Source: Pseudomonas triticicola (GTDB lineage: Bacteria; Pseudomonadota; Gammaproteobacteria; Pseudomonadales; Pseudomonadaceae). From it: a DNA stretch of 64,000 nucleotides. Location: positions 3,199,001 to 3,263,000 of the forward strand of contig NZ_JAHSTX010000001.1 in assembly GCF_019145375.1 (NCBI RefSeq), given 5' to 3'. Made by a program: the position numbers and the translations under genes. The notes beneath the pieces were generated by a model, which saw nothing but the letters and a program-made list of their open reading frames with translations, was not told where the DNA came from and ran no database searches. Below, in pieces: positions 54,305 through 62,270 of this stretch (positions are counted from its first letter, which is position 1; each line of letters begins with the position of its first letter).

Positions 54305-54381
<77 letters not shown>

Positions 54382-54598: not shown

Positions 54599-54675
<77 letters not shown>

Positions 54676-58905: not shown

Positions 58906-58943
58906 AAAAGCCCCCGCAACTTCACAGTTGCGGGGGCTTTTTA
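58906..58943 (+). terminator. Terminator after mprF-virJ
   Basis: AAAAGCCCCCGCAACT / AGTTGCGGGGGCTTTTT, a very strong stem with a T-run. Confidence 0.92.
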
Positions 58944-58964: not shown

Positions 58965-59061
58965 CCCTGTGGGAGCGAGCCTGCTCGCGAATGCGGTGGG
59001 TCAGTTTACAGATTCGTCGACTGACACTGCGTCTTCGCGAGCAGGCTCGCTCCTACAAGGG
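58965..59061. repeat. Paired inverted REP element (REPIN-like)
   Basis: Head-first pair. The second arm ends GCTCCTAC in place of GCTCCCAC. It flanks the downstream end of the three-gene cassette at 59086-61233. Confidence 0.88.
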
Positions 59062-59085: not shown

Positions 59086-59769
59086 TCAGTCCCGCTGGCC
59101 AAGCTGAACATCTATCCACGTGACATCATCGTCGCCAACGCTAAAGTCGCTATCCGGCGCCGCCAACAAAATGCTTTGCTGGGCTTGCGTCAAGTCCGCC
59201 CAAAAGCCATCAGTGACAAATACCAAGCGCTCAACAGCCTTCAGTGCACAACAAACAAAGTCAGGGTTCGGAACCCGATTGATCTTCAAGCATCGAGTTA
59301 CCGAATTTCGCGCGGGGTCTCGCGCCAACTCACAGTGCGAACGGTCGCGCCGCCAATTGGCCTTGCAATGAGGTGGCGTAATCCACTCGATGGCTCCCGC
59401 CAGCGTCGCAATCCCGCATGAACAGTCACCTTCGTATGCAATGGTGAGTCGGTCATGCGCGACCAAGCCAATCAGGTAACAGATGGCTCCCGTCTGATCA
59501 GCAGGCAACGACGCATGAAAATCCGCCAGTATTGACCCCAATAGACGCTCAACTGCTTCGGGTTCTGCAGGATAGCCCCCCTGCTCCATCCGTGTGGAAT
59601 GAGCCGCCAACATGCCCCTTACGAAGCTTTCAGCCAGCTGTCCACTGCCGCGCCTGGAAGTGCCATCCGCGACAACAAAAAAACCGCCGTCACCCTCACA
59701 GGTCGCTCCGGCATAGTCATTATTTGCCCTGCTGGCTTGCCCAGTGATTGATCGGGAGTGGTATCTCAT
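59086..59769 (-). CDS. Divergent PP2C-like serine/threonine phosphatase
   Basis: 227 residues. PP2C motif order is kept in a degenerate form: RANNDYAG (for R-x-x-N-E-D), FFVVADGTSRRGSGQLAE with D35-G36 (for D-G-x-G-G), LTIAYEGDCSCGIA (for G-D-S-R), VFVTDGFWADL (DG), and DDDVTWIDVQL at the end (for D-N-x-T). Enough acidic residues remain for a two-metal site. It lacks a signal peptide. Its ATG overlaps the stop of the nucleotidyltransferase gene by four bases, the third gene of a tight operon. A phosphatase reversing a modification made by its partner is one idea only. Confidence 0.75.
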   Translation of the reverse strand: MRYHSRSITGQASRANNDYAGATCEGDGGFFVVADGTSRRGSGQLAESFVRGMLAAHSTRMEQGGYPAEPEAVERLLGSILADFHASLPADQTGAICYLIGLVAHDRLTIAYEGDCSCGIATLAGAIEWITPPHCKANWRRDRSHCELARDPARNSVTRCLKINRVPNPDFVCCALKAVERLVFVTDGFWADLTQAQQSILLAAPDSDFSVGDDDVTWIDVQLGQRD

Positions 59770-60464
59770 GCGCTGGCCAGCGCTTTCAAACGCCTGTGAA
59801 TAATCTGCCCTCTGCCTGGATTCGTCTGCACCGAGCCTGAACTTTCGATCACATAGCCAACCCCGTCGAGCGCCATCAGTTTGCGGATTCCATCTGTGAC
59901 GAACGCCTTAAGGTCGCTGTCAGCCTGGCGCACCTCCTCCAACAGCTCAGGCCGACCATCGATCAAGATGATCATGTCCTCGACATCCTTGTGATAAGGA
60001 TCACCATTTCCCCGACCAGCGAAAGCTTCCAGTTTCGTCGCGAGAAAATACGTGGGCTGGAATATCTGGATGACAGTGCCGCTGGGCAAGGTGAATTTAT
60101 CCGCACTCGCCAGCCCCTCGACGAACCAGCGGTTGGCATAGCCGAGTACTGCAGGGTCGGAAGGCATGACATCCACAACAACGTCATTGAAGCGAAAACG
60201 ACAATTGACCTCGTCCTCACCGGTGATCTTGAATCCCTTGGCAGCCAGCCGTTCAGTGAGTTGGTTCCAGGCGCTGATACCGGCCAACTCGATCACTAAA
60301 TCAACGTCATCAGTGAAACGAATGTCGTCCAGCACGGCTGTATCTGTAACCAGCATGGCAGTTGTGCAACCGCCAACAAAAGCAACTTCGGCGAGAAACG
60401 CCTCGCCCAAGCCTTCAGCCACGAACTCAATAAGTTCGTAGTTGTGATCCGCGTTTGACGACAT
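59766..60464 (-). CDS. Nucleotidyltransferase of the AbiEii/MNT-like superfamily
   Basis: 232 residues. The pol-beta-type NTase core is visible: hG-G at 31-32 (FVGGCTTAML), the acidic pair in RFTDDVDLVIE (D53, D55), and the third acid in VVVDVMP (D98). The C-terminal part (FLATKLEAFAGRGNGDPYHKDVEDMIILIDGRPEL) is like that of AbiEii/MenT toxins and related tRNA- or protein-modifying NTases. It lies one base after the HTH gene and overlaps the PP2C-like gene by four bases. Target unknown. Confidence 0.82.
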   Translation of the reverse strand: MSSNADHNYELIEFVAEGLGEAFLAEVAFVGGCTTAMLVTDTAVLDDIRFTDDVDLVIELAGISAWNQLTERLAAKGFKITGEDEVNCRFRFNDVVVDVMPSDPAVLGYANRWFVEGLASADKFTLPSGTVIQIFQPTYFLATKLEAFAGRGNGDPYHKDVEDMIILIDGRPELLEEVRQADSDLKAFVTDGIRKLMALDGVGYVIESSGSVQTNPGRGQIIHRRLKALASA

Positions 60465-60465
60465 G

Positions 60466-61233
60466 TTATTTAAGCCCCATCCCTGCCTTCAGAATACTGA
60501 TTGCCACACCACACTCACGCGGACCACCCAGACGGATTGCATCAGCGAGCGCCAGATAGTGGTAAAGGATCCGGTCTTTTTTCACCGCTTCCGGCACTGT
60601 TTTGTAAAGCGGCTCTATCGCTTGGCCTCGCTCGGTTCCCTGCGCATCCGGCCAGACCGGAATCAAACCACCCGCACTCTTGATGCTTTTGGACAGCGCA
60701 GGCGCCGCAAAGCCTGTGGGTATGCCACGAACCATCGCGCCAGGCTTGACCGGGAAGAAGTACTTCAGCGCGTACTCGGTGATTTTCAGCAGTTCCCGGC
60801 GGTGCACTTTGGCAAGCCCGGTGTCGTAGTCATGGATGAGCAATCCGGATTCCCGGCATCGGGCGAGCGCATTTGAGACTTCGCTTTTGCTCAGTCCGAG
60901 AGAGGCAGACAGCGCACGCAGAGAGTACCGATCGCTCCAACTTGTCAGCGGTGGATCAGATGCTGGTTCCGCCCATCCCTCCCAGCCTGGCCCATCAGCG
61001 AAAGGCGAATCGAGTTCGCGGCGATGGAAGATTGTGTCTTCCCCATCAGTGGAGTAGGTGACCAATGGCTTACCCACACCCTCCCCTGCGGTCATTCGGC
61101 TGACGACATAAGGCCTGAGCAGCTCTTCGACCCTGTCCGAATTCGATTCGGCCTCCATCTCCCCCAAGAGGTTCTCTTCCTGAGCGTGGAGACTGGCCAT
61201 TTTGAACAAAAGTAAAATGTCTTGACTCTTCAT
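60466..61233 (-). CDS. Winged-helix regulator, first gene of the HTH-NTase-phosphatase cassette
   Basis: 255 residues. The N-terminus (MKSQDILLLFKMASLHAQEENLL) is predicted helical. A clear winged HTH lies at about 104-140 (YSLRALSASLGLSKSEVSNALARCRESGLLIHD). The C-terminal half (YALKYFFPVKPGAMVRGIPTGFAAPAL..GLIPVWPDAQGTERGQAIEPLYKTVP) is an unrecognised effector or partner-binding domain. A perfect 11-bp inverted repeat sits 15 bases upstream of the start, so autoregulation is likely. It plays the place of an AbiEi-type antitoxin/regulator, but I see no AbiEi sequence match. Confidence 0.8.
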   Translation of the reverse strand: MKSQDILLLFKMASLHAQEENLLGEMEAESNSDRVEELLRPYVVSRMTAGEGVGKPLVTYSTDGEDTIFHRRELDSPFADGPGWEGWAEPASDPPLTSWSDRYSLRALSASLGLSKSEVSNALARCRESGLLIHDYDTGLAKVHRRELLKITEYALKYFFPVKPGAMVRGIPTGFAAPALSKSIKSAGGLIPVWPDAQGTERGQAIEPLYKTVPEAVKKDRILYHYLALADAIRLGGPRECGVAISILKAGMGLK

Positions 61234-61247
61234 TTAGCTCAAAACCT

Positions 61248-61281
61248 CAAGTGTCCACATTCCATAAAACGTGGACACTTG
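61248..61281. promoter_or_regulatory. Perfect 11-bp palindromic operator of the cassette
   Basis: CAAGTGTCCAC (61248-61258) and GTGGACACTTG (61271-61281) are exact complements with 12 bases between, just upstream of the regulator start at 61233. The spacing of two turns between half-site centres fits a dimeric HTH protein. It is not an intrinsic terminator, as no T-run follows. Confidence 0.7.
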
Positions 61282-61283
61282 TC

Positions 61284-61466
61284 TCACTGCCGAGGCCGGG
61301 TCGTCAAGCCCTTGGGTCGATCACTAATCGCTGCATACCTTGCCCGCATATCGTCATGGCTGATTGCGCGGACCAAATCAAAGATGAGCAATCGTTCACT
61401 GGCCTTCTTTTCGATCAGAAGCTCCTCTGGTTCATCCTGTAGTTCTTGTGCCGCTGATGCCGTCAT
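61284..61466 (-). CDS. Possible small hypothetical protein upstream of the cassette
   Basis: About 60 residues (MTASAAQELQDEPEELLIEKKASERLLIFDLVRAISHDDMRARYAAISDRPKGLTTRPRQ if begun at the ATG at 61466), same strand as the cassette and ending three bases from its operator. Charged and helical in appearance. No clear SD and no recognised family; it may be a remnant of an earlier gene or a chance frame. Confidence 0.3.
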   Translation of the reverse strand: MTASAAQELQDEPEELLIEKKASERLLIFDLVRAISHDDMRARYAAISDRPKGLTTRPRQ

Positions 61467-61619
61467 ACGAACCTGAATGCTGTGCACACGTCGCTTCGTG
61501 CGTGACGTTTAGTTTCGTTTACTTCCAGTCTCGCAATATCAGATGACGCCCACAGACCTTGTAGGCAAACTCCGAAACTCTTGTTGGGCCGCTGTGCCGC
61601 TCTATTGCGCTGTTTTTTG

Positions 61620-62173: not shown

Positions 62174-62270
62174 CCCTTGTGGGAGCGAGCCTGCTCGCGA
62201 ATCCGGTGGGTCAGCCACCACATGCTTCGACTGACACTACGCCTTCGCGAGCAGGCTCGCTCCCACAGGG
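62174..62270. repeat. Paired inverted REP element (REPIN-like)
   Basis: Head-first pair; its spacer (GGTGGGTCAG...CGACTGACACT) is closely related to that of the pair at 58965, so these two are probably recent relatives. Confidence 0.9.

Follow-up and report, generated by a model that had tools for sequence, protein, structure and literature searches.

Why should a toxin-like nucleotidyltransferase (NTase) and its candidate regulator share an operon with a protein phosphatase? The question is raised by a cassette of three genes, here called A, B and C, in a 64,000-nucleotide stretch of Pseudomonas triticicola DNA (the window). The trio is a member of PDC-M21, an already catalogued three-protein candidate for phage defence, and is best explained as a three-gene relative of the AbiE and MenAT toxin-antitoxin modules. 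Probably it acts as an NTase toxin-antitoxin or defence module of which the PP2C-type phosphatase is a working part. The genes, in the order A-B-C, all lie on the minus strand:

60466..61233, minus strand: gene A, winged-helix regulator and putative antitoxin, PDC-M21A, 255 amino acids
59766..60464, minus strand: gene B, MenT/AbiEii-like NTase and putative toxin, PDC-M21B, 232 amino acids
59086..59769, minus strand: gene C, PP2C-type phosphatase, PDC-M21C, 227 amino acids (PADLOC PDLC04518, E 4e-57)

Relation to Known Systems

The coordinates bear out the tight packing noted in an earlier reading of the letters and open reading frames alone (the sequence-only reading), since A and B are separated by 1 base and B and C overlap by 4 bases. 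In PADLOC-DB 2.0.0, A, B and C match PDC-M21A, PDC-M21B and PDC-M21C with E values of 2e-79, 9e-93 and 4e-57, over most of each length, and plasmid relatives of the trio also match the PDC-M21 families. The earlier statement that a PP2C-like third partner belongs to no such system is thus overturned, and no difference between PDC-M21 and the window trio was found. A preprint by Payne and co-workers on defences embedded in immune systems is said to have defined the PDC candidates. A literature search run without bioRxiv preprints and with few subscription journals found no paper describing PDC-M21 or the combination of an NTase with a PP2C.

The MenAT (MenT1, MenT3/TglT) and AbiE (AbiEi/AbiEii) modules share with the trio a regulator or antitoxin gene placed before a DUF1814-like NTase gene and the four NTase motifs, as well as an acceptor threonine in motif II; an inverted repeat ahead of the first gene is a further trait in common with AbiE (PMC3985639). 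The trio differs from them in that B scores under the Pfam AbiEii cut-off and carries D52 in place of the basic neighbour of the acceptor, and in the extra PP2C gene. With the COG4861-COG4849 pairs it has in common a winged helix-turn-helix (wHTH) gene preceding the NTase gene, the motif III KLxAaxxR and the motif IV +DxxD; these pairs are described as consisting of two genes rather than three, and the likeness is one of description and motifs (PMC3985639). A further study ranks AbiE fourth in abundance among phage-defence systems and counts the MenT toxins among its relatives (PMC11375011).

The Nucleotidyltransferase

The residues listed by the sequence-only reading (G31-G32, D53/D55 and D98) are present in B, whose motif residues are G31-G32, R49-x-T51-x-D53-x-D55 and D98. 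All four motifs of the DUF1814/MenT-like NTases (I-IV: hG[G/S], R-x3-DhD, K..A..R and +DxxD) are found, the spacing from G32 to D53 (20 residues) being longer than in those enzymes. Across 85 B proteins, a set from which L191 was left out, G31, G32, R49, D53, D55, K144, A147, R151, D160 and D163 are invariant. Motif III, of the COG4849 type KLxAaxxR, reads KLEAFAGR in the window; besides K144, A147 and R151, kept in all, it has an aromatic residue at 148 in 84 of the proteins and L145 in 66. At the position before D160, the "+" of motif IV, the window protein has Lys; 40 of the 46 B proteins without C have His there, and 31 of the 39 with C have Lys or Arg, a clade difference near the active site.

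The best fold match of B is the Mycobacterium tuberculosis toxin MenT1 (8an4/8rr5), including the form phosphorylated at T39. This places B with the MenT fold and agrees with the likeness to AbiE-type toxin-antitoxin modules that had been proposed. In the profile alignment to 8an4, T51 of B falls on T39 of MenT1, and the position is occupied by Thr in 85/85 aligned proteins:

60312..60314, minus strand: codon of B T51, equivalent of the phosphoacceptor MenT1 T39 / MenT3 S78, by profile alignment to 8an4

The Phosphatase

The motif residues of C are N16/D18, D35-G36, G114-D115, D187-G188 and D214/D215, and the metal ligands are intact. Among C proteins of at least 200 amino acids (L183, L188 and L191, with a shorter C, were left out), D18, D35, D115, D187 and D215 each occur in 36 of 37, the exception being L192, where the frame is broken, and D214 occurs in 35 of 37. 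Together with the residues invariant in the 85 B proteins, these counts answer favourably the check on motif conservation that the sequence-only reading had suggested. Its description of the PP2C motif set as degenerate stands for the overall similarity, since Pfam PP2C_2 (PF13672) gives the window C 18.8 bits, below the cut-off of 24 (three of the five relatives scanned pass), and a PDB search with the C sequence alone returned no match; it does not stand for the metal ligands. A profile of 30 C proteins matches Stp1 (2pk0, E 2.7e-13) and PstP (2cm1, E 2.6e-6). With these two phosphatases C shares the profile match and all the metal-binding aspartates; it differs from them in being divergent and encoded in a toxin-antitoxin-like operon. 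C also matches positions 279-481 of phrog_5650 (E 1.8e-14), a 565-position phage family of unknown function, which means that a PP2C region of this kind also exists in a phage protein.

Distribution and Evolution

In 149 Pseudomonas genomes, B was found in 24 and A in the same 24 (two more hold fragments of A), with a strong C alongside in 20. M21C at E <= 1e-3 matches 133 of these genomes; the 20 have E 4.3e-36 or better, beside A-B, and the remaining matches are presumably other PP2C genes. Among 14 control genomes, M21B matches one (Corynebacterium glutamicum), M21A two (C. glutamicum and Methanocaldococcus jannaschii) and M21C five. Matches to B, some of them partial or weak, occur in 33 of 398 genomes of the phylum and 41 of 369 of the class, and A lies in the same stretch as B in 107 of 109 loci (L001-L109), the other two being partial B matches. 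None of the phage records matched B, and a DNA search of Escherichia coli genomes with the B of Providencia gave no match.

A DNA search of plasmids with the window stretch gave no match; at the protein level, B has matches in 116 of 72,556 plasmid records. A hold-out of 17 of these records, chosen for variety among the matches listed, covers Pseudomonas, Azotobacter, Providencia, Duffyella, Oceanisphaera, Vibrio, Acinetobacter, Caballeronia, Paraburkholderia and four Rhizobiales. A C-like frame stands beside A-B in 17/17, being short in L183, L188 and L191 and weak (16 bits) and broken in L192; this figure is not a rate, because the loci were picked by the likeness of their B to the C clade. 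The three genes therefore occur together far outside the species, including on plasmids of several genera. Given this wide co-occurrence and the conserved motifs, neither of the two findings that the sequence-only reading had named as telling against a functional system, rare co-occurrence outside the species and unconserved motif residues, was made.

The A-B pair is widespread, and 46 of the 85 loci have it without C. In a FastTree phylogeny of the 85 B proteins, all 39 C-bearing loci fall inside one clade of 46 (local support 0.994), which indicates that C probably joined once. The members of this clade without C are L020, which keeps a remnant of the C start, L023/L024, L037, L081, L082 and L083, L037 and L083 perhaps reflecting a single loss. 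Within this clade C mostly runs into or directly adjoins B, the gaps in intact copies being -4 to 7.

The Regulator and Its Candidate Operator

The wHTH of A, which had been called clear, is present and supported by the predicted model, but it is weak at the sequence level (Pfam MarR_2, E 0.0032). The model (mean predicted local distance difference test score, pLDDT, 78.3) comprises the wHTH and a C-terminal part, with helices 1 and 2 of the wHTH separated by a mostly disordered stretch (residues 42-93) that is short or missing in many loci with A-B only. Foldseek and VIA returned, among the 50 matches listed by each for A, mostly wHTH regulators and no AbiEi or MenA, which is not evidence of difference from these antitoxins.

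60955..61110, minus strand: disordered insertion of A between wHTH helices 1 and 2 (residues 42-93; pLDDT <50 at 42-83 and 89-93)
60973..60984, minus strand: WEGW motif in the insertion (residues 84-87), whose link with C does not generalise

In a discovery set of 69 loci, non-redundant at 90% identity, WxxW and C were both present in 23, both absent in 43, WxxW alone in 3 and C alone in 0. The corresponding counts before redundancy removal were 47, 47, 3 and 0 of 97 loci, a set with redundant rows (some contigs are present twice, from two collections) that excludes L001, which is the window, the truncated, broken or partial L051, L052, L074-L077, L079, L080 and L109, and L084, L101 and L103, in which B is under 200 amino acids. 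WxxW as a docking motif for C was dropped: in the hold-out plasmids, with a C-like frame in 17/17, WxxW is found in 9/17 only. From the sequences it is taken as a clade feature only, the discovery-set pattern being largely that of one clade.

Upstream of A lies the following element:

61248..61281, no strand: palindromic operator candidate, core AAGTGTCCAC-N12-GTGGACACTT, 14 bases before the start of A

Its arms (61248-61261 and 61268-61281) are complementary at 13 of 14 positions, the outer 11 perfectly, and the host genome holds the exact copy once, plus one further site with 3 mismatches. In windows of 75 bases (p <= 0.05 against 60 shuffles), a significant inverted repeat precedes A in 22 of the 23 loci that carry C and in 29 of the 46 that do not, as compared with 3 of 69 control windows placed within B, and in 40 of the 51 positive loci the repeat ends 10-24 bases before A. 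An operator-like palindrome, as seen in the sequence-only reading, is in this sense supported. Moreover, the half-sites vary with lineage, GTCC-type in Pseudomonas and TTCGC or ATTCC types elsewhere, as would be expected of the operator of an autorepressor. A promoter scan found no sigma-70-like promoter before A.

Association with Defence Genes

In 10 of 53 flank sets, from about five lineages, the module is embedded in or adjoins type I restriction or BREX genes, in these arrangements:

L114, L119 and L136 (3/53 flank sets): hsdR-[ABC]-hsdM-hsdS-mrr
L121, L140, L141 and L142 (4/53): hsdR-[AB]-hsdM-hsdS
L112 (1/53): BrxC-[ABC]-PglX
L151 and L163 (2/53): module directly before hsdM, with hsdM adjoining B

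In the gene set of L114 (L029), an operator-like repeat lies within the 78 bases between hsdR and A. In the other 43 flank sets no gene of this kind directly adjoins the module, though L160 and L161, two of the 43, contain an hsdM-like frame at a distance of 1-3.5 kb. Ten proteins from three loci were typed by PADLOC and the other loci by BLASTP to those ten, and other restriction genes may thus have been missed. The 62 nearest neighbours, taken from 85 listed frames of which some are perhaps not genes, matched 48 PADLOC families, each of the 25 listed by one member; these families include reverse transcriptases and PDC-S02, S12 and S13.

Several single loci deserve mention. In the BREX locus (L112:514-7225, minus strand), PglX is split in two frames, which cover positions 1-619 and 638-1203 of the 1205-position profile and between which lies a UG5-nitrilase defence reverse transcriptase gene, with a 4-base overlap and a 2-base gap at the junctions. 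At L110:1483-7590, A-B is followed by a 2035-amino-acid AAA-ATPase protein (Pfam AAA_22), possibly an uncatalogued defence ATPase, for which there was no PADLOC match at 1e-10, and then by a frame that looks integrase-like. On plasmids, the trio stands beside a Lit-family phage-exclusion gene and HigBA in Agrobacterium tumefaciens (L190:3930-5660) and beside a TrlF-family ATPase in Vibrio anguillarum (L185:1-1688), all as annotated.

A Possible Mechanism and Its Alternatives

The sequence-only reading had suggested a writer/eraser pair, with the NTase modifying a target and the phosphatase reversing the modification. The product of nucleotidyl transfer is a phosphodiester, whereas the bonds that PP2C enzymes hydrolyse are those of Ser/Thr phosphomonoesters; C is therefore unlikely to undo the reaction of B directly, and as a direct eraser of nucleotidylation it was rejected on these chemical grounds. 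What survives of the idea is a different target, a phosphate on B T51 being a fitting substrate for C.

For toxicity, substrate, phosphorylation, dephosphorylation and trigger we infer the following scheme, partly by analogy with the MenT toxins. From the position and conservation of the palindrome, A would bind it and repress the operon, and it would also bind B as an antitoxin. Free, unmodified B would halt growth by nucleotide transfer to an RNA such as tRNA. As in MenT1 and MenT3, A-bound B may phosphorylate itself at T51, which would block the active site, and C would take this phosphate off, re-arming B, for example upon phage attack. This scheme as a whole, in which A silences B via T51 phosphorylation and C removes the phosphate, is possible, with the balance somewhat against it. 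In the TglT study, phosphorylated TglT did not revert by itself or through its antitoxin; PstP was able to dephosphorylate it slowly, to completion only after 12 h; and, no specific phosphatase having been found, one yet to be identified was postulated (PMC7205606). Given this gap, a PP2C borne on the operon is an obvious candidate, and the matches listed in the literature search include no specific reactivating phosphatase for MenT-type toxins since that study. That C is the reactivating phosphatase postulated by the MenT3/TglT authors, kept as a stable third gene and serving as a dedicated eraser of the T51 phosphate and a reversible on-switch, is a doubtful proposal, though a possible one.

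A number of observations weigh against this scheme. B reaches 13.7 bits with Pfam AbiEii (PF08843), below the gathering cut-off of 22.5, and the analysis did not link A to any known antitoxin (AbiEi or MenA). T51 is also invariant in 46/46 loci without C, so its presence does not depend on C. A basic residue next to the acceptor, a mark of the type VII modules, contacts the ATP gamma-phosphate in MenT1 (R40) and MenT3 (K79). In B it is replaced by D52; among the 39 C-bearing loci the residue is D in 32 and E in one, and autophosphorylation of B may consequently differ or fail. Published work reports that the antitoxin of MenT4 does not phosphorylate its toxin and that MenT1 is also held through complex formation. 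Furthermore, the tree suggests that C, apparently gained once, was then lost about five times with A-B kept, inner supports being low, and C evolves faster than A and B (dN/dS, the ratio of non-synonymous to synonymous substitution rates, in nine pairs is 0.05-0.16 for A, 0.05-0.18 for B and 0.13-0.36 for C; rough values, because dS is near or above 1 in most pairs).

These losses, the fast evolution of C and the frequency of A-B without C favour a self-sufficient type IV/VII-like A-B pair, to which C would be an accessory acting on something that has no link with B, such as a phosphoprotein of a phage or of the host, unless C is itself the effector. The contact or overlap of C with B in most clade loci and its retention in 39 of 46 clade members, with metal ligands intact in nearly all, speak for a closer tie, and we consider such independence of C unlikely. 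C could also act on A, with B still the toxin: a Ser/Thr phosphate, placed for example on the disordered insertion by a host kinase or by B and setting DNA binding or antitoxin activity, would be reset by C. This fits the disorder of the insertion in the model and the docking-motif-like WxxW that tracked C in the 69 discovery loci; that tracking rests mostly on one clade, however, and failed in the hold-out, where 8 of the 17 C-bearing plasmid loci are without WxxW, which leaves A as a rather unlikely target.

A module that mainly regulates host defence, A (modulated by B and C) controlling the surrounding restriction or BREX genes, would explain the flank sets embedded in or adjoining hsd or BREX genes and the operator-like repeat between hsdR and A; solo copies such as that of the window would then be remnants or act on unknown targets. 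The 43 flank sets in which BLASTP to the ten proteins found no such gene directly adjoining, the uniqueness of the operator in the genome of the window and the invariance of the catalytic residues of B in solo copies too make this explanation quite improbable.

Surroundings of the Cassette

The cassette has a lower G+C content (about 0.53-0.59) than the genes on either side (about 0.61-0.68), which are ordinary-looking: to one side genes resembling dinB, mprF and acvB/virJ, to the other a DUF3077 gene and one resembling kup (VirJ and DUF3077 named from Pfam; dinB, mprF, acvB and kup by look). It is placed between acvB and kup in 16 of 27 genome loci, the sequence of a 17th (L002) stopping before acvB. 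The acvB-kup adjacency is common in the genus, and close relatives have it without the cassette. Among 11 cassette-less sites, those of G033 (acvB 99% identical) and G034 retain a 67-base piece that matches window positions 61215-61281, with the palindrome and the opening codons of A, at 84 and 87% (L123:1206-1272 and L124:1216-1282), which suggests deletion of the cassette at those sites; no piece of the palindrome and A start was seen at the other nine.

58906..58941, plus strand: hairpin with 16-nucleotide arms, 100% paired, where the convergent acvB/virJ-like gene ends (repeat search)
58965..59060, no strand: REP-like pair on the C side, 86% identical to a second copy at 62175-62270

The flank of a terminator and a REP (repetitive extragenic palindromic) pair given by the sequence-only reading is present as elements. 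The hairpin looks like the terminator of the acvB/virJ-like gene but is not among the sites listed by a terminator scan, and the repeats are of a kind that we take to be REP. The two REP-like pairs bracket a stretch containing the cassette and the DUF3077 gene. Immediately upstream of the palindrome, a 67-amino-acid frame (61284-61487, minus strand) is possibly a small gene, and part of its region (61333-61490) is retained at 87% in G011, a cassette-less genome. Farther off, tandem tRNA-Met genes (54305-54381 and 54599-54675) are located upstream of the mprF-like gene.

Biological Significance

Where a toxin is silenced by phosphorylation, degradation of the antitoxin cannot free it, and a phosphatase is needed. 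A conserved operon that unites a MenT-like toxin, a regulator and an intact PP2C makes this question of reactivation testable in vitro. In some genomes the module lies within restriction or BREX operons, which would suit a back-up role triggered by disturbance of the host system. If the proposed role of C is true, it would provide a mechanism for PDC-M21, a system catalogued but so far unexplained.
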